From an uncultured Spirochaetia bacterium (lineage in GTDB: Bacteria; Spirochaetota; Spirochaetia; SZUA-6; Bin103): DNA of 64,000 nucleotides. Location: assembly GCA_958296075.1 (NCBI GenBank), contig CATQHW010000002.1, forward strand, positions 930,001 to 994,000. Reading direction: 5' to 3'. This document shows, one piece after another, positions 41,080-60,172 of this stretch; position 1 is the first letter of the stretch; each line of letters starts with the position of its first letter. A program made the translations under genes and the position numbers. Under the pieces are notes generated by a model that worked only from the letters and a program-made list of their open reading frames with translations, did not search any database and was not told the origin of the DNA.

Positions 41080-42417
41080 TCAGACGGTCGCCGGCGGGGT
41101 GGCGGACGCGATTCCCTGCTGGACCAGCAGCTTGAGGAAGTCGTCGGCGAGATCGGCCGCGGCGCCCTCGGGGAGCGCCTCCCGGAACGCGCCGGCACGC
41201 ACGCCCGCGCCGCGCAGCAGGGGCGCCAGCAGCTCCATGCAGCGGCCGTCGAACGTCCATCGGTAGCCGTTCGCCTGCAGCACCGCGGCGCCGTCGGCGC
41301 TGCGTTCCAGAGTCGCGCGCCGGGCGCCGCGCAGCCGGATCTCGTAGCGTTCCCAGTCCGGGGACTGCCACGGGTCGAGGTACGGGCCGAGGCTCGTGCG
41401 TGGCCGGTCGGACCAGGTGGCGCGCAGGTGGTCGCGGAATTGCTGTCCGGGGTCTCCTGCCAGTTCCCCGAGGATCAGCTCCCGGAGCGCCGCGTAGTGG
41501 GCGCCGCCGGAGCGGTCCGTCGGGTGCGGGAGGTCGCGGCGGAACGTCTCGTGGCGGGTGAGCCTGCCGGTGAGCCACTCCATGAAGTCGAGACCGGTGG
41601 TCGCGTGAGCGCTGCAGGTGAGGTGCAGGCTGCCGGCGCCGTCGGAGCCGTCTTCAGCCTCGGCGCGGGCGTCGTGCCACCAACCGCGCGGGAGGTAGAG
41701 GACGTCGCCGGCCCGGAGCATTCCGTTCCACACCGGCGCGGCCGGCGGCTCCGCGGGCGGTTCCGAGTCCCGCACGAGCGGAAAGCGCCGCGTTTCGCCG
41801 TAGATCTGCCAGCGCTTCGTTCCGGCCACCTGCAGGATGAACACGTCGTGGTCGTCCCAGTGGGTTGCAAAGCCGGGGGTCGCCACCCACGAAGCGTAGA
41901 GGTTGATCGTCACGTAGCCGCTCAGGGATTCCTCAAGCGCGTCGGCCACGGGACGAATCGGAGGATGGAGCTCCTGGATGCCGGGCAGGACGATGGAGGC
42001 GCCCTGGCGGAGCATCCCTTGCAGCCGCCGGTCATCGAGTTGGCTCGCGTTCTCAGGTGCGCCGCTCCTTCTCCAGCCGTGGCCGAACGGCGGCGTGGTG
42101 TAGGCGATGCTGGGGACGCTCCTGCCGTCCTGGACCAAGTCCATCCGGGCGTACCACGCGTCCGAGCACAGCAGCGCGTTGAGCTGTTCCCAGGTGCACA
42201 GCGAAGCGAAGCGGGGGCCCTCCGCCCGAAACAGGACCGGGCGCTTGTCCCGGTAGCGGGTGTCGAGGAACTCCTGCGTGGTCAGCGGCCGGATGATGCC
42301 GGCGAAGTCGGCCGGTTCGTAGCGCTCCGCGCCGGCGGGGAGCACCTCGACCGCAGCGAGGCCGGCGCCTGCGGGGGCCGCTTGCGGAACGGACACGCGC
42401 GTCCCAGGTTCACCCAC
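41080..42417 (-). CDS. JmjC/cupin-type Fe(II)/2-oxoglutarate oxygenase of the RiPP locus
   Basis: A 445-aa cupin_4/JmjC protein, similar in layout to bacterial ribosomal oxygenases (YcfD/RoxA type). Iron site: HWDDHDVFILQVAGTKRW (H-x-D, about residues 200-217) and GDVLYLPRGWWHDA (distal His, about 250). A winged-helix-like C-terminus follows (LKLLVQQGIA). Known relatives hydroxylate Arg or His in proteins, so a peptide substrate is plausible. GTG at 42417 has AGAGGA 6 nt upstream and overlaps the small gene's end by 8 bp; reading frame continues upstream only as shadow. Confidence 0.88.
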   Translation of the reverse strand: MGEPGTRVSVPQAAPAGAGLAAVEVLPAGAERYEPADFAGIIRPLTTQEFLDTRYRDKRPVLFRAEGPRFASLCTWEQLNALLCSDAWYARMDLVQDGRSVPSIAYTTPPFGHGWRRSGAPENASQLDDRRLQGMLRQGASIVLPGIQELHPPIRPVADALEESLSGYVTINLYASWVATPGFATHWDDHDVFILQVAGTKRWQIYGETRRFPLVRDSEPPAEPPAAPVWNGMLRAGDVLYLPRGWWHDARAEAEDGSDGAGSLHLTCSAHATTGLDFMEWLTGRLTRHETFRRDLPHPTDRSGGAHYAALRELILGELAGDPGQQFRDHLRATWSDRPRTSLGPYLDPWQSPDWERYEIRLRGARRATLERSADGAAVLQANGYRWTFDGRCMELLAPLLRGAGVRAGAFREALPEGAAADLADDFLKLLVQQGIASATPPATV

Positions 42418-42682
42418 CGGGTTCCTCTTTGGCGCGCGCGGCCGGAGCGCGTTCCGGCGGTTCCACCGCAGTGTCGGGTACGATTTCGATGCTGATACGC
42501 GGAACCGCGCCGCGCGAGCTACCGGCAGGCTGGATCCTGCTGAGATAGTCAGCTTCCTGCTTGAAGGCACGGCGGAAGGCGAGGCACACGACCGGCGTCC
42601 CGCCGCGCAGAAGGTTCCGTGGGTCCATATCTCTTACTGCAACGTACCGAGCCGGCGTCTTGCGAGCAACCACCCCGTTCAT
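42410..42682 (-). CDS. small basic protein between NHLP precursor and JmjC oxygenase
   Basis: A 90-aa reading frame (72 aa if begun at 42628). It contains YVAVRDMDPRNLLRGGTPVV and FRRAFKQEADYLSRI, then a charged tail EPPERAPAARAKEEPGG. No motif is recognised. It overlaps the JmjC gene and lies in the precursor-to-oxygenase transcript, so a part in maturation or recognition is possible. Ribosome sites are weak for both starts; codon use at the 5' end is less GC-rich than the neighbours. Confidence 0.5.
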   Translation of the reverse strand: MNGVVARKTPARYVAVRDMDPRNLLRGGTPVVCLAFRRAFKQEADYLSRIQPAGSSRGAVPRISIEIVPDTAVEPPERAPAARAKEEPGG

Positions 42683-42806: not shown

Positions 42807-43151
42807 TCAATGTATATAGGTCGGGCCGTTGATATCGTCCCAGAAGGTAATCGCCTCGTCTTGGCGAACCCAATCTCCACGGTACGGGTCCCGGCGGTAG
42901 ATCGCCCCGCCGGCCGCCTTCTGCAGCTCAGACTCGCCGAGCGCCGCGAGCGGCGGTAGCACCACGTGGCTGGTGTCCGGCACGTCCTCATGCACCTTGA
43001 TGGTGAAGCCGTCGGGAATCGCAAGCCCCAGCTCATCCTTGATCGCGGCCTTCGGGTCGGCGATCAACTGGGCGCGGAACGCCTCGTCCCTGGTCGCCTT
43101 GTCCACCAAGTGCTCGCGCAGTTCGTTGGCAGTCAGGGGTTTGTTACTCAT
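42807..43151 (-). CDS. NHLP-type RiPP precursor A (nitrile-hydratase-like leader)
   Basis: A 114-aa precursor. Leader (residues 1-80) is the nitrile hydratase alpha-like type: ELREHLVDKATRDEAFRAQL, IADPKAAIKDELGLAIPDGF and IKVHEDVPDTSHVVLPP, ending ELQKAAGG. The core after GG runs AIYRRDPYRGDWVRQDEA, then ITFWDDINGPTYIH: rich in Tyr, Trp, Asp and Arg, with no Cys. ATG has GGAGG 8 nt upstream. Heads the operon with the small protein and JmjC oxygenase. Leader nearly repeats that of precursor C. Confidence 0.9.
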   Translation of the reverse strand: MSNKPLTANELREHLVDKATRDEAFRAQLIADPKAAIKDELGLAIPDGFTIKVHEDVPDTSHVVLPPLAALGESELQKAAGGAIYRRDPYRGDWVRQDEAITFWDDINGPTYIH

Positions 43152-43186: not shown

Positions 43187-43255
43187 AGTATCGGCTACCG
43201 CCGCCGGCGTGTCAACGCGAACTCCCAGAAAGTCGCTTATCCGGTATTTCCGTGG
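43187..43255 (-). promoter_or_regulatory. NHLP promoter module A
   Basis: Minus strand: 20-bp element CCACGGAAATACCGGATAAG (43255-43236), 20 nt, TTGACA (43215-43210), 17 nt, GATACT (43192-43187). Shares 31 of 40 positions before the -35 with module C. Confidence 0.8.
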
Positions 43256-43332
43256 TAACAGGCTCCATCCCCGTGACCATAAAAGGATCAGACGATCCTC
43301 CCAACGTGTTTGCCAATCGGCATCTCGCGAGG

Positions 43333-43602
43333 TTACCAGAGCCGACCGCCGAGATACTCGACGGTCCAGCCGCCGGAGGCCATTTTCAGATCGGCTCTGG
43401 TCAGCTTGCTGTCGAGCGGCAGCACCAGATGCGCCGTGGTACTACTCTCTTCGTGTATCTTGATCGACATCGACTCTGGAATGGTGATGCGCAACTCCTG
43501 CTCGATCGTTCCCTTGGGATCGCTCCGCAGCCGCGCGCGAAACTCGGCGTCCTCGGCCGCCTTGGCGACGATCTCCGCCTGCATCTCGTGCGCCGACTTC
43601 AT
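43333..43602 (-). CDS. NHLP-type RiPP precursor B
   Basis: An 89-aa precursor of a second leader subtype: MQAEIVAKAAEDAEFRARL, SDPKGTIEQELRITIPESM, IKIHEESSTTAHLVLPLDS, ending KMASGG. The core is WTVEYLGGRLW. AAGGTGAG precedes the ATG at 43602. It stands alone between module A and the ISL3 relic; a diverged copy of the shared element lies about 190 bp upstream at 43788-43809, next to a TTGACG, but with no good -10. May be poorly expressed. Confidence 0.85.
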   Translation of the reverse strand: MKSAHEMQAEIVAKAAEDAEFRARLRSDPKGTIEQELRITIPESMSIKIHEESSTTAHLVLPLDSKLTRADLKMASGGWTVEYLGGRLW

Positions 43603-43787
43603 GCTTCTCACCTTGGATGGATCGGCAGATTGCACGGAGTACGAAAGTACCGAGCCATCCGCCTCGCCGGCTGGACCGGGCGGCGGCTGCGCGGGTTGCG
43701 CACCAGCGCGCCGCCGCGATGCCGGCGCTTGACAACCGCTTGTCGGGTGGCGATGCTGCCGTCAAGGACGTTTGCTGCCGACGAGGC

Positions 43788-44636
43788 GATTATCTTCCGG
43801 GTTTCCGCGTCTCGGTCTGGGGAGGAAGGAGCAGGCGGTTGGCAAAGATCGACATCGGCGATCTTCTCGGAGATTGGGACGGCTACGAAGTCGTGGCCGT
43901 CGCGCGGCGTAGTGGAATGGTCGAGATCGAGTTGAACCCTGTCGGCGGGCTGCCTGGGGTCTGCACCGGTTGCGACCAGGAAGTGCCCACCGTACATGGG
44001 TACGAGCGGCGCCGGGTTCGCGATCTGCCGATCCTCGATACGCCGGCCAGCCTGATACTGCGACGGCGTCGGCTGGCATGCCCGCGGTGCGGTCCGAAAC
44101 TGGAACGGTTGAGCTGGTTGGCCCGCTATGCGCGGGTAACGCAGCGGCTGGCGGACAGCGTGACGCAGATGTGCACGGTGATGACGGTCAAGCAGGTGGC
44201 GGAGTTCTACCGGTTGGGATGGGACACGGTGAGGGACCTGGACAAGCGGTTCCTGCAGCGTCGCTTCGAGCCGGTCGACCTGCACGGCGTGACCTATCTG
44301 GTGGTGGACGAGTTCGCGTTGCTCACCGGAAAGAAGTACGTCACCGTGATCACCGATGCGGTGACCAAGCGGGTGTTGTGGGTGGCCAGAGGGCACCGGC
44401 GCGAAAACATGCGGCCGTTCTTCGAGCTCCTCGGCAGCGCCGGTTGTCAGGCGATCAAGGCGGTCGCGATGGACATGAACAGCGCCTACGAGAAGGAAGT
44501 CCGGCACCACTGCCCGCAGGCCAGGGTCGTGTACAGCCTGTTCCACGCCGCGTTCAAGTACGGCGCGCGGCGCGATCAAGCGGCGGTGCCGGTGACGACG
44601 ACGCCGAAAGCCGCCCACGGAAATCCCGGATGAGTC
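43788..44636. mobile_element. ISL3-family insertion sequence, internally deleted
   Basis: About 0.85 kb against the usual 1.2-1.5 kb. Left end GATTATCTTCCGGGTTTCCGCG (43788-43809) and right end, read inward, GACTCATCCGGGATTTCCGTGG (from 44636) are imperfect inverted repeats flanking a truncated transposase. No 8-bp target duplication is visible. The right repeat is also the upstream element of NHLP promoter C, so the boundary assignment is tentative. Confidence 0.6.
43839..44633 (+). pseudogene. ISL3-family transposase, C-terminally truncated
   Basis: 264 aa where about 400 are normal. Zinc ribbon CTGCDQEVPTVHGYERRRVRDLP...ACPRCG, helix-turn-helix (MTVKQVAEFYRLGWDTVRDLDKR), first catalytic Asp in LVVDEFALLTGKKY and second in AVAMDMNSAYEKEV. 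The frame is normal to LFHAAFKYG (about 44570) and then becomes unrelated, ending inside the right repeat; the DDE Glu is missing. TTG start at 43839 has GGAGGAAGGA 8 nt upstream. Inactive. Confidence 0.85.
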
Positions 44637-44684
44637 ACTTTCTTGGGTTTGGAGTTGACATGCGGGTAAGCGGCGGCCGATACT
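44615..44684 (+). promoter_or_regulatory. NHLP promoter module C
   Basis: CCACGGAAATCCCGGATGAG (44615-44634), 20 nt, TTGACA (44655-44660), 18 nt, GATACT (44679-44684). Drives precursor C and the two genes after it; leader of about 55 nt with GAGGAG before the start. Confidence 0.8.
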
Positions 44685-44746: not shown

Positions 44747-45070
44747 ATGAGTGTCGAATCCAGGACCATCGGCGAACTTCGCGAGCATCTGGTCGACAAG
44801 GCGACCACGGACGAAACGTTCCGCGCTCAGTTGATCGCGGACCCGAAGGCCGCCATCAGGGACGAGCTGGGGCTTGCGATTCCCGACGGGTTCACCATCA
44901 ACGTGCACGAGGAGACTGTGGACGCCAGCCACTTGGTGCTGCCGCCGCACGCGGAACTCGGTCTGGCCGATCTGGAAGAGGCGGCCGGCGGAGCGGGCAA
45001 TTGGCGTTACCGAGCGGACGGGTCGCGCTACTGGCATGAGGACGACAGCTTCTGGACTTTCTGGGACTAG
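44747..45070 (+). CDS. NHLP-type RiPP precursor C
   Basis: A 107-aa precursor, close paralogue of precursor A: leader ELREHLVDKATTDETFRAQL, IADPKAAIRDELGLAIPDGF, INVHEETVDASHLVLPPHA, ending LEEAAGG. Core AGNWRYRADGSRYW then HEDDSFWTFWD. Cores A and C share a Tyr-Arg...Arg-x-x-Trp...Thr-Phe-Trp-Asp order. GAGGAG precedes the ATG by 8 nt. First gene of a three-gene unit with the 365-aa protein and the toroid protein. Confidence 0.9.
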   Translation: MSVESRTIGELREHLVDKATTDETFRAQLIADPKAAIRDELGLAIPDGFTINVHEETVDASHLVLPPHAELGLADLEEAAGGAGNWRYRADGSRYWHEDDSFWTFWD

Positions 45071-45103: not shown

Positions 45104-46201
45104 GTGAGCGCGGACGCCGGCCGATCGGCCGGCGACGCGCGCGCCACCTTCGCGTCTACCCTTGATGGGTGTCGGCCCCTGTTTCCACCGGCCCTGCTCG
45201 GCTGCTCCGGCTGGGAGCGTCTCCTGGACCGGGCCCGGCGGCTGCCCCGTTCGGTAATCGACGCCCATTTCGGCTTCGAGTTCCGTCTCGGAGAGCCGAG
45301 CCCGGCCGCCGACCTCTTCGTCGTCGTACTTCCGGCATCGGAGCTGGCGTATCACTATGTCCGGGAGGGAGCTCGCGCCGAACGAGGATCGCCGGCGGCC
45401 GCTCTTGCAGCCGGACTTCAGGAACAGGCCGCGAATCCGGATTCGTACCTTGCCCGCGGCGTGGCTGGAATGGTGCTGGAGTACGATCTGGCCGAGATCG
45501 AGCCAGGTCGGCCGCCGCCGGCCCCCGGTATATTCTTCACGCCACGAGGCTCCGCGCCGGGGTCGCGGGCGGAGTTCCATGAGCACGGAGATCCTGCCGG
45601 CCTGCTTGCGGCGCTTGCCGTGACCGCCGGCTGGAGCGGTCACGAGGAGGAGATCCCGATAGTCGAGCGCATCCTGGCGGCGCTGCCGGACACGGGCTAT
45701 CTGTTCCAGGCGGGAGCGCTCCCGGGGCGCTCCCCGAAGGCGTTCCGGGCCGTTTTCAAGGGAATCGCGAAGGGGGCGGTTCCCGCCCTGCTGGAGCGGA
45801 TCGAGTGGCCCGGCCCGGCGGCCGTGGCGGCGGACGTGCTTGCCGCGATGGACGACCTGGTCGCCTATGTCGCGGTCAGCATGGACGTGACGTCGCGCGG
45901 GCTGGGTCCGCGGCTCGGTCTGGAGTTGTACCGGCCGCCGAAGTGGTTCGCGGTCGATCGCACGGGGTGGCTCCCCTTCATCGCCCGGATCGAGGAGCGG
46001 GGCTGGTGCCTTCCGGCCAAGGCCGGCGGACTGCGGAGCTGGCCCGGTACCGAACGGCTGCTCGATGACGCAGGCATGCATGTCGTTCGCCAGGGCATCA
46101 ACCACGTCAAGGTCGTCATCGACCCGCATGCCCCGACCGCGGCGAAAGCCTACGCCGGCATGGACGTCTATCCCTGCGGATCGACGCCCCGGCTGCGGTA
46201 G
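45104..46201 (+). CDS. unrecognised 365-aa protein of the RiPP locus
   Basis: I do not recognise the family. No signal peptide or membrane helix. Features: SVIDAHFGFEFRLGE near residue 50, a glycine/alanine-rich helical middle, YVAVSMDVTSRGLGPRLGLELY (about residues 263-284), and NHVKVVIDPHAPTAAKAYAGM near the end. Alternating strand-like segments and conserved Asp/Arg suggest an enzyme. GTG start 33 bp after precursor C; its stop overlaps the next gene by 1 nt. Position makes it the prime candidate for a core-modifying enzyme. Confidence 0.7.
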   Translation: MSADAGRSAGDARATFASTLDGCRPLFPPALLGCSGWERLLDRARRLPRSVIDAHFGFEFRLGEPSPAADLFVVVLPASELAYHYVREGARAERGSPAAALAAGLQEQAANPDSYLARGVAGMVLEYDLAEIEPGRPPPAPGIFFTPRGSAPGSRAEFHEHGDPAGLLAALAVTAGWSGHEEEIPIVERILAALPDTGYLFQAGALPGRSPKAFRAVFKGIAKGAVPALLERIEWPGPAAVAADVLAAMDDLVAYVAVSMDVTSRGLGPRLGLELYRPPKWFAVDRTGWLPFIARIEERGWCLPAKAGGLRSWPGTERLLDDAGMHVVRQGINHVKVVIDPHAPTAAKAYAGMDVYPCGSTPRLR

Positions 46202-47196
46202 TGTCTGACGGGCCACGCGGCGGCGTTGCCGGTGCGGCCCCGGCGCGGTTCCGGGAGGCGGTGCGCGACGCGGTCGACCGGGGCCTCGGCTTCCTCGAAG
46301 CGGCCATCCGCGCCGACGGCGCCTGGGCGTCGCGGATCTACCGCAACCTGGACCTTACGGGACCAAGCCAGGACGAACACCCGCCCTTCGTGGCCGGCCT
46401 CGGCGCGCTTACGCTGGAAGCCTGCGGCGACCCCCGGTCCCGGTCGATCCGGGACCGGTCCGGGATGTACGTCGTCCGCTCCATGCGCTATCCGGGCACG
46501 TGGCGCTACTGGCCGAGTCTCCCGCGCGATCTGGACAGCCTGAGCGTCTGCTCCCAGGCGGTCCGGTGGCACCCCTGGGTGCTGTTCGGCGCCAACCTCG
46601 GACTCCTGCCGGCCGCGCAGGACGAACGGGGAAGGTTCAGGACCTGGATCGCCCCGCCCGCCGAGTCCAATGTCGCCGACAGCGTGGTGAACGCCAACGT
46701 CGTCGGCTACCTCGCGCTGCTGGGACGGAACGAGATCGGCGAACGGGCGGCGGCGTGGCTTGCCGGTCTGATCCGGGACGGGAATGCGGCGGGGACCTCC
46801 CATTACTATCCCGATACCATCGACCTGTACGACGCCGTCGCCCGCGCCCGCGGGCGGGGCGTGCCTGCGTTCGAGGACCTGGGGACGCTGCTCGTGGACC
46901 GTATCCGCGCACGGCGCGGCACGGACGGCGGGTACGGCGACACGCTGCGCACCGCGCGCGCCCTCTCCGCGCTGCACGTGCTGGGAGCGCCGCCGGCCGG
47001 CGACGGGTTGTGGGCCGCGCTGGAGCGAATCCTGAGCCGCCAACGGCCCGACGGAAGCTGGCCGGAGCACCGCTACTGGCAGGGACCCCTGCCGCCGAAC
47101 CCGCCGACCGTGGGATTCGGCTGCGCGATGCTCGACACCGCTTCGTGCATCGAGGCCCTGGTCCGGTCCGTCCCGGTGCCGGCGCCCGGCGCGTAA
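46201..47196 (+). CDS. squalene-cyclase/prenyltransferase-like alpha/alpha-toroid protein
   Basis: A 331-aa protein with terpene-cyclase-type repeat motifs: GLGFLEAAIRADGAWASR near the start, GTDGGYGDTLRTARALSAL near 240 and ILSRQRPDGSWPEHRYWQG near 280 (QW-like DGxW turns). It is a single toroid; the DxDD acid motif of squalene-hopene cyclases is not seen. In the precursor C unit it could bind or cyclise a modified peptide, or be a terpenoid enzyme. The stop/start overlap TAGTG couples it to the previous gene. Confidence 0.75.
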   Translation: MSDGPRGGVAGAAPARFREAVRDAVDRGLGFLEAAIRADGAWASRIYRNLDLTGPSQDEHPPFVAGLGALTLEACGDPRSRSIRDRSGMYVVRSMRYPGTWRYWPSLPRDLDSLSVCSQAVRWHPWVLFGANLGLLPAAQDERGRFRTWIAPPAESNVADSVVNANVVGYLALLGRNEIGERAAAWLAGLIRDGNAAGTSHYYPDTIDLYDAVARARGRGVPAFEDLGTLLVDRIRARRGTDGGYGDTLRTARALSALHVLGAPPAGDGLWAALERILSRQRPDGSWPEHRYWQGPLPPNPPTVGFGCAMLDTASCIEALVRSVPVPAPGA

Positions 47197-59737: not shown

Positions 59738-59998
59738 TTACCAGTTATCGACGGGGTTCCAGGAGCCACCGGCGACCGTTTGCAGATCGCTTTGGCTCAG
59801 CCGGCTGCCGGGGGGAAGAATCAGATGCGCGGTCGCGTCGCTATCTTCGTGAACTTCGATCGCCATGGACGCCGGAATGGCGACGCCCAACTCCTGGCTG
59901 ATCGCTCTCTTCGGATCGCTGAGCAGCCGCGCCCGAAAATTCGCGTCCTCGGTCGCCTTGCCGACGATCTTCGCCCGCATGTCCTGTGCCGTTTCCAT
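59738..59998 (-). CDS. NHLP-type RiPP precursor D (distant from the main locus)
   Basis: An 86-aa precursor of the same leader subtype as B: MRAKIVGKATEDANFRARLL, SDPKRAISQELGVAIPASM, IEVHEDSDATAHLILPPGS, ending TVAGG. Core SWNPVDNW, eight residues flanked by Trp. GAGGAGGAG lies about 10 nt before the ATG. It sits among sugar-acid genes with no modifying enzyme beside it, so it probably relies on enzymes of the 41-47 kb locus. Confidence 0.9.
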   Translation of the reverse strand: METAQDMRAKIVGKATEDANFRARLLSDPKRAISQELGVAIPASMAIEVHEDSDATAHLILPPGSRLSQSDLQTVAGGSWNPVDNW

Positions 59999-60079: not shown

Positions 60080-60149
60080 AGCATCAGCGGCGGTCGTTCC
60101 GGCGTCAACCTCCCGCCCGAAGAACATGGCTTATCCGGGATTTCCGTGG
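60080..60149 (-). promoter_or_regulatory. NHLP promoter module D
   Basis: Minus strand CCACGGAAATCCCGGATAAG (60149-60130), 21 nt, TTGACG (60108-60103), 17 nt, GATGCT (60085-60080). The 20-bp element differs from modules A and C by one base each. Confidence 0.8.
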
Positions 60150-60172
60150 GCTTGCGGGCGGCAGGTGGTGAT

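Follow-up and report, generated by a model that had tools for sequence, protein, structure and literature searches.

The question raised by this locus is why one short DNA word stands both at the end of a truncated ISL3 transposase gene and at a nearly constant distance upstream of promoters of NHLP precursor genes. The window, by which we mean the whole 64-kb stretch of DNA that was analyzed, carries three copies of this word, and the features around them are the following:

43839..44633 (+): short ISL3-derived gene, 264 aa, the proposed regulator; start codon TTG at 43839; matches PF14690, PF13542 and positions 1-86 of 240 of PF01610
44613..44636 (+): word, proposed class-I operator at the place of a right terminal repeat; ISL3-end matrix rank 1-2
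44655..44684 (+): promoter TTGACA-18-GATACT, 18 bp after the word; read from the sequence
44747..45070 (+): gene for an NHLP precursor of 107 aa, assigned to the word at 44613; TIGR03793, 62.3 bits, over the cut-off
43234..43257 (-): word copy; ISL3-end matrix rank 3
43187..43215 (-): promoter TTGACA-17-GATACT; read from the sequence
42807..43151 (-): gene for an NHLP precursor of 114 aa, assigned to the word at 43234; TIGR03793, 63.2 bits, over the cut-off
60128..60151 (-): word copy, no ISL3 gene nearby; ISL3-end matrix rank 1-2
60080..60108 (-): promoter TTGACG-17-GATGCT; read from the sequence
59738..59998 (-): gene for an NHLP precursor of 86 aa, assigned to the word at 60128; TIGR03793, 67.6 bits, over the cut-off
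43333..43602 (-): gene for an NHLP precursor of 89 aa that has no own word (L104); TIGR03793, 59.5 bits, over the cut-off
45104..46201 (+): gene without a Pfam match, of a kind found beside several NHLP cassettes of the window genome; 71% and 68% identical to two Binatia copies (70% for 45104-46198)

The 24-bp word GCCCACGGAAATCCCGGATGAGTC at 44613-44636 (+) overlaps the stop codon of the short ISL3 gene (TGA, 44631-44633), as the first-pass annotation had described, and its ISL3-like tip is directed away from the transposase gene, as expected of a right end. Relative to this copy, the 24-mer has six differences at 43234-43257(-) and two at 60128-60151(-). The fixed distance to an NHLP promoter, which had likewise been described, is seen at all three copies: they lie 18, 18 and 19 bp before the -35 boxes TTGACA, TTGACA and TTGACG, respectively, which are followed after 17-18 bp by the -10 boxes GATACT, GATACT and GATGCT. 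The center of the word thereby falls ~66 bp before the expected transcription start, as counted from the -10 box at 44679. Two of the copies had also been said to have no transposase beside them: this is correct for 60128 (L035, best E-value 0.03), whereas 43234 is situated ~0.6 kb from the transposase gene.

The termini of full-length ISL3 elements provide the standard against which the word can be compared. Cupriavidus elements end in GGTTCTTCGCCGATCTGCG and GGTTCTTCACCGATTTCCGGGG and a Xanthomonas element ends in GGTTCATCTCCCAAGTG and GGTTCTTCACCCAACTCC, in both cases with identical 8-bp AT-rich flanks on each side; the full-length elements of the window genome itself (L001-L003), whose transposases are 27% identical to the window short protein, end in GGGTCTTCCGGGTTTCGTGTGG and GGGGCTTCAGGAATTCGTGTGG. 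The termini of both the relatives and the window genome's own elements are of the same type as the word and not of a different one. Among plasmids, 2,435 records match the transposase part (three at 60-80% identity, which are lost at E 1e-30), and the best full-length matches are 52-57% identical over 88% of the query, with one from Cupriavidus KK10 reaching 58.5% over 71%; the plasmid ISL3 copies compared are three records, L041-L043, with the two top-ranked matches showing the same alignment.

We compiled the 16 ends of eight full-length elements into a matrix, with no word included, and scored both strands of the window with it. Across 127,958 window positions the three top scores are the three words (19.8, 19.8 and 11.8; next 10.7), while the reversed matrix ranks them 1,134th or lower and in 200 column permutations no word rises above rank 6. 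On leaving out one element at a time, the words remain the top three in seven of eight cases, the exception being the removal of L006, with which the word at 43234 moves to rank 5. This copy is also the one that depends on the composition of the matrix (rank 13 with only L041, L042 and L063; rank 7 with only the five distant elements); the words at 44613 and 60128 stay first with either the closest three or the distant five elements. The same matrix gives its four top scores in L044, a locus of a Candidatus Binatia genome that is considered below, to the four words present there, and in further loci of the window genome the word comes first in eight of nine, the sixth rank in L200 being a point against. 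Conversely, a matrix made from the words puts 20 ends of 10 elements at a median rank of 3. The summed -ln p is 151, whereas 60 permutations averaged 40 and never exceeded 86.5; the sum overstates independence, since the 10 elements include several that are closely related. The first-pass annotation's equation of the promoter word with an ISL3 terminal repeat thus passed two reciprocal matrix tests; the view that the word is an ISL3-type end, with the copy at 44613 standing where a right terminal repeat would be, is supported.

The gene that ends in the word retains matches over cut-off to three ISL3 Pfam families, namely the Zn-ribbon, the helix-turn-helix and, for its first third only, the DDE domain. 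The DDE domain is incomplete: the match extends over profile positions 1-86 of 240 in the window protein and 1-93 in its Binatia counterpart, so that about two thirds of the domain profile are missing, with the aspartates D157 and D212 (likely DDE motifs) being kept and the catalytic glutamate presumably falling within the lost part. The KYG motif is separated from the word by 50 bp in the window and 49 bp in Binatia, as against 470 bp in the full-length L063 and L041, and the two short genes appear to have in common a deletion of ~420 bp that spared the right repeat. In the window gene the deletion amounts to 140 codons, and the reading frame then closes 3 bp short of the tip, the same distance as in L063 (6 bp in L041 and L042). 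The N-terminal Zn-ribbon and helix-turn-helix are presumably the parts that recognize ISL3-type ends; both short proteins have the same cysteines C42, C45, C81 and C84. An AlphaFold model from the two-row alignment had a pLDDT of 43 and was unusable. The short gene could be driven by a promoter-like TTGACA-17-GATGCT without a word at 43729-43757(+), 82 bp ahead of its start codon.

The Binatia counterpart came from searching a genome collection of 84,980 species for exact matches to six peptide words, a procedure that reaches close relatives only and returned one locus, L044, of an uncultured Candidatus Binatia bacterium (G572). The short gene there encodes 252 aa that are ~73% (72-74%) identical to the window protein over 242 residues, and it is followed by the same order of elements as in the window: KYG, 49 bp, CCACGGAAAACCCGGATGATCC, TTGACG-17-TATCCT and an NHLP gene. 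In a phylogenetic tree, whose rows were translated in frames chosen by blastp, the two short proteins form a clade with support of 100/100 beside L041, L042 and L063 (90/90, 89/92). Their dN/dS of 0.31 (0.308 over 242 codons; 0.311 over a longer local alignment) and the values of 0.26-0.37 for five other genes common to both clusters are plain counts on a single pair of sequences each and carry no confidence interval; by part, the same type of count gives 0.25 for the first 140 residues of the short gene and 0.41 for the rest. The short gene is an immobile transposase copy under purifying selection and, since its shortened form has been kept in a second genome, this truncated transposase is not debris. 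One might nevertheless regard it as the decayed remainder of an ordinary IS that abuts an NHLP promoter, with a coincidental likeness between the word and ISL3 ends, given that full-length ISL3 elements are found in the window genome and that such elements insert in AT-rich DNA, as intergenic regions are (witness their 8-bp repeats). We consider this extremely improbable: the same shortened gene, distance and order recur in Binatia, the gene is under purifying selection and the matrix tests speak against coincidence.

The association of the word with promoters extends beyond the window. At up to three mismatches a 22-mer of the word finds 10 copies in the 4.05-Mb window genome versus none for the reversed pattern, a copy number that exceeds chance, and the consensus as query finds 11. 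A sequence profile built from the 11 word-to--10 regions and searched against the window genome recovers 12 strong modules genome-wide (E of 3.7e-12 or lower), of which the one at C1:429266 was outside the 11 profile sequences; below them follow C1:402321 at E 0.01 and then a match at 0.05. These modules are spread over three contigs. The best -35 box is situated 17-21 bp after the word at the 12 sites; in four of the 12 modules (L032, L034, L037 and L038) the -10 box is weaker, with two or three letters off GATACT, which counts against a regulatory role. Mean pairwise identity among the 12 sites is 0.87 in the word, 0.51 in the first 12 bp past it, 0.34-0.37 farther on and 0.28-0.32 in three 20-bp blocks upstream, and no common sequence precedes the word among the sites. 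The Binatia version of the word has five exact copies, all within 4 kb beside the short gene (reversed control 0), and a sixth match with three mismatches elsewhere; its distance to the -35 box is 20 bp in five of five sites.

Genes of the NHLP precursor family TIGR03793 over the curated cut-off number 11 in the window genome and 19 in the Binatia genome. In the former, a strong word is found upstream of eight of the 11 and a variant at C1:402021, and the two NHLP genes at which no word of their own was found are C1:630824 and the window gene at 43333-43602. The contamination estimate of the window genome is 5.24%. Four strong modules are not accompanied by an NHLP gene:

L037: module preceding a solute-binding protein gene (Pfam SBP_bac_3)
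L034: module preceding a lipoprotein-like gene without a Pfam match
L038 and L200: modules with no clear gene after them

The variant, CCCCGGAAATTCCTGATAAC, occurs once in the window genome and three times in Binatia (one of these with two mismatches), with no further match at up to three mismatches in both genomes and none for the reversed control. Its sites are:

C1:402358-402377 (-) of the window genome: variant-class site (L225)
G572:C1:2518003, 2519397 and 2521774: variant-class sites of the Binatia genome (L224, L226 and L227)

All four sites precede NHLP genes, 18-20 bp before TTGACA, and the variant is identical over 20 bp between the two genomes. In each 3-kb locus the site is the best ISL3-end match (4/4), with the one at G572:C1:2518003 scoring 14.2, and 9.6 in a shifted register. 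The variant resembles the CAGGAATT type of ISL3 end; we offer as a suggestion only that its class may go back to the opposite end of the ancestral element, such that the two operator classes may correspond to the two ISL3 ends. Counting both classes, a site lies directly upstream of nine of 11 NHLP genes in the window genome and eight of 19 in Binatia. The 11 of 19 Binatia genes at which a 50-kb scan and genome-wide word searches found no site directly upstream, together with the two such genes of the window genome, count against a regulatory reading; one of the 19 (1712860) is outside the 50-kb scan, and the genome-wide searches list no site near it. Several of the site-less NHLP genes sit in tandem behind a gene with a site.

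Could the words be the ends of units that move? A diverged copy of the word before the transposase start had been proposed as a left end: the string is present at 43788-43809, 29 bp before the start, and has the 13-mer TCTTCCGGGTTTC in common with one end of the full-length ISL3 elements of the window genome, but it makes a poor ISL3 end, with a best ungapped score of -4.8 that is equaled or exceeded at 1,317 of 127,958 window positions, and its role as a left end is not supported. Another candidate pair is formed by the words at 43234 and 44613, which are inverted with respect to each other, span 1,403 bp (roughly the length of an ISL3 element; L063 is 1,341 bp) and enclose, between 43234 and 44636, the NHLP gene at 43333-43602 and the short ISL3 gene; they could be the two ends of one unit, which would be the simpler reading of them as IS ends. 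The 8 bp outside this pair, CAGAAAGT and ACTTTCTT, are mirror images, as two promoter modules pointing in opposite directions would produce, and there are no direct (8-bp target) repeats. In the Binatia locus no word is present on the far side of the short gene.

Two explanations based on mobility are affected by the surroundings of the sites. At 17 of 21 sites no left end scoring above 8.9 is present within 1.4 kb upstream; of the remaining four, two are mutual partners, and L040 and one Binatia site have partner ends scoring 11.9 (at 1,165 and 885 bp, respectively). In the nine other word loci (L032-L040) no ISL3 remnant was detected (best E 0.03). Wherever a clear gene follows the site, the ISL3 tip faces that gene, and the precursor genes therefore lie outside the ancestral element. 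The first explanation, also entertained in the first-pass annotation, is that ISL3 elements preferentially insert upstream of such promoters, or that the sites are ISL3-type MITEs; short ISL3-type elements seem to occur in the Binatia class, and the words at 43234 and 44613 do form an inverted pair. With nine word loci devoid of ISL3 remnants, few partner ends, no direct repeats beside the inverted pair, dissimilar upstream sequences, and a sequence after the word that is conserved with the promoter, unlike random target DNA, insertion at a preferred position or an origin as MITEs is very improbable. In the second explanation the word and the short protein move or copy precursor cassettes, perhaps with a full-length ISL3 transposase acting in trans, the promoter distance being a by-product. 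The cassettes are indeed dispersed in the window genome and common to Binatia at 74-87% protein identity, and full-length ISL3 elements exist in the window genome; yet the tip orientation leaves the precursor outside the element, 17 of 21 sites have no partner end above that score and within that distance, the short protein is without two thirds of the DDE profile and sequence identity is concentrated on the word and the next 12 bp. Mobile cassettes and preferred insertion are both disfavored by the tip orientation, the rarity of partner ends and the nine loci without remnants, and we regard the movement of cassettes as improbable. The other option raised in the first-pass annotation agrees with the observations: an end of the IS would have been taken over as a regulatory site, which then multiplied together with the precursor cassettes.

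We propose that an ISL3 transposase which lost its catalytic end became a DNA-binding regulator and that its right terminal repeat became the operator, a reading to which we assign a probability of about 0.6 on the strength of the matrix tests, the promoter geometry, the Binatia copy and the purifying selection. According to this proposal, an ISL3 insertion sequence upstream of an NHLP precursor promoter would have lost ~420 bp of its transposase gene while keeping the Zn-ribbon and helix-turn-helix, along with the right terminal repeat beside the promoter. The immobile short protein would still bind the right repeat and act in trans as a transcription regulator; the repeat, turned operator, would then have been copied with precursor cassettes to other loci, including some non-NHLP genes. 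With the repeat 17-21 bp upstream of the -35 box and its center near -66, a class-I activator position, activation would be the expected outcome and repression the second choice. The likeness of the word to ISL3 ends, the geometry of the promoters, the common deletion, the purifying selection and the co-occurrence in two genomes can be seen directly in the DNA. That the short protein binds the word we infer from the retention of the Zn-ribbon and helix-turn-helix, and its action as a regulator, together with the sign of that action, is a prediction at the same level.

A rival account accepts the ISL3 origin of the word and assigns its recognition to an unrelated regulator encoded elsewhere, with the short gene as a passenger of the cluster. 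Such a regulator could lie anywhere, and the sites of the window genome are spread over three contigs. As a mere passenger, though, the short gene would hardly be expected to show a dN/dS of 0.31 next to the 0.26-0.37 of the shared biosynthetic genes, still less 0.25 in its DNA-binding part; the repeated site is exactly the one that the short protein should recognize by descent; and no other regulator was found among the annotated ORFs matched between the window and Binatia clusters, which are annotated in part. We consider this alternative unlikely, albeit one to be taken seriously beside the origin of the regulator from the transposase itself.

The domestication of a transposase as a regulator with reuse of its terminal repeats is already known in eukaryotes. 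The nearest functional parallel to the short protein is SETMAR, and the nearest bacterial one is TldR, which originates from TnpB. SETMAR, a human mariner-derived protein, keeps terminal-repeat binding and has a proposed effect on expression, but it is eukaryotic, is fused to a methyltransferase and binds thousands of repeats that are mostly outside promoters (PMC9062482); here we have a bacterial protein, about twenty promoter-proximal sites and predicted binding. The TldR proteins are RNA-guided transcription factors of bacteria (PMC13418256). They too derive from a transposon-encoded protein, but one of nuclease ancestry, in contrast to a DDE transposase with its own DNA-binding domains and a site that resembles a terminal repeat. 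The plant regulators FHY3/FAR1 are another instance of a transposase turned transcription factor, differing in being eukaryotic, of Mutator type and equipped with another DNA-binding domain (PMC13306707; PMC6000157). With regard to the ISL3 elements (L001-L003, L041-L043 and L063), the locus resembles them in the Zn-ribbon, the helix-turn-helix, the start of the DDE domain, the type of terminal repeat and the overlap of the right repeat with the stop codon, the tip being 3 bp from the stop as in L063; it differs from them in the loss of ~420 bp, in having no recognizable left end and no target repeat, and in that solitary copies of the end are present at many promoters.

One study has noted that transposase genes occur near NHLP and other TOMM clusters and reads them as a possible vehicle of transfer between organisms (PMC4603692), and in the main text of the study on NHLP clusters (PMC2887384) the words "transposase" and "promoter" are absent. 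In the part consulted, a review on how prokaryotes recruit mobile elements names regulators of Xre type and antitoxin-derived ones and no bacterial DDE-transposase regulator (PMC8987985). A literature search, whose scope left out most subscription journals and which is weak evidence for that reason, returned no ISL3-derived or bacterial DDE-transposase-derived regulator. If the proposal is true, it offers a compact and testable case of one small protein, one 22-bp site and about twenty promoters, as well as a way to approach silent NHLP peptide clusters. Truncated transposase genes of biosynthetic clusters, which are commonly taken as debris or signs of mobility, may in that case regulate those clusters.

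The window genome and the Binatia genome seem to belong to separate phyla, because 246 further genomes of the phylum of G572 are absent from the phylum and class sets of the window genome. It is conceivable, at somewhat less than even odds, that a bacterial DDE transposase became a sequence-specific transcription factor with the terminal repeats of its element as operators, in two classes (CCACGG...CCGGATAA and CCCCGGAAATTCCTGATAAC) that may represent the two ends, and that regulator, operators and precursors moved between phyla as one self-contained module. The cassettes, which consist of word, promoter, NHLP gene and partner gene, recur in both genomes at 74-87% protein identity. The NHLP genes at L228:9467-9754(-) (C1:402 kb of the window genome) and G572:C1:2522167-2522526 are 87% identical, in keeping with a recent exchange of cassettes between distant lineages.

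Outside these two genomes related sequences are more distant. Apart from the short genes themselves, protein relatives reach at most 33% identity in 296 genomes of the window genome's phylum (17 with a match) and at most 54% in 247 genomes of the Binatia phylum (41 with a match); in the order of the window genome, three of 26 genomes have a match, its own included, the best of the other two being at E 3e-14. As to the word, 10 of 393 other genomes of the window genome's class have one or two matches, those listed having three mismatches, and the reversed control has a match in three genomes. In the Binatia class, 45 of 148 genomes match the Binatia word at up to three mismatches versus two for the reversed control; among the places listed, 0-1 mismatch is seen in this genome only and two mismatches in one other. 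The pairing of short gene and word is found in two genomes only among those searched, which is a point against the derivation of a regulator from the transposase. Some of the three-mismatch matches in the Binatia class look like ends of short ISL3-type elements.

Several minor observations can be added. Seven loci in four Binatia-class genomes have sequences three to four letters from the Binatia word, and tblastn found no ISL3 gene in them. Three of these loci, L184, L185 and L189, are possible non-autonomous elements of ~190-205 bp with ISL3-type ends and no transposase; their possible inverted partner, ~165-185 bp off with six to eight mismatches, is a weak match, unrelated ones with eight mismatches occurring too, and L184 has nearly identical AT-rich flanks. 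A protein scan of viral contigs gave no relative of the short protein, and the matches of a degenerate word pattern to 48 viral contigs are attributable to chance, none of these contigs having ISL3 or NHLP homology by tblastn. In the neighborhood of the window locus, a gene for a JmjC/cupin-type protein at 41083-42570(-) is 71% identical in the Binatia cluster, and a gene at 46201-47193(+) with a weak terpene-cyclase-like match is 77% identical there.
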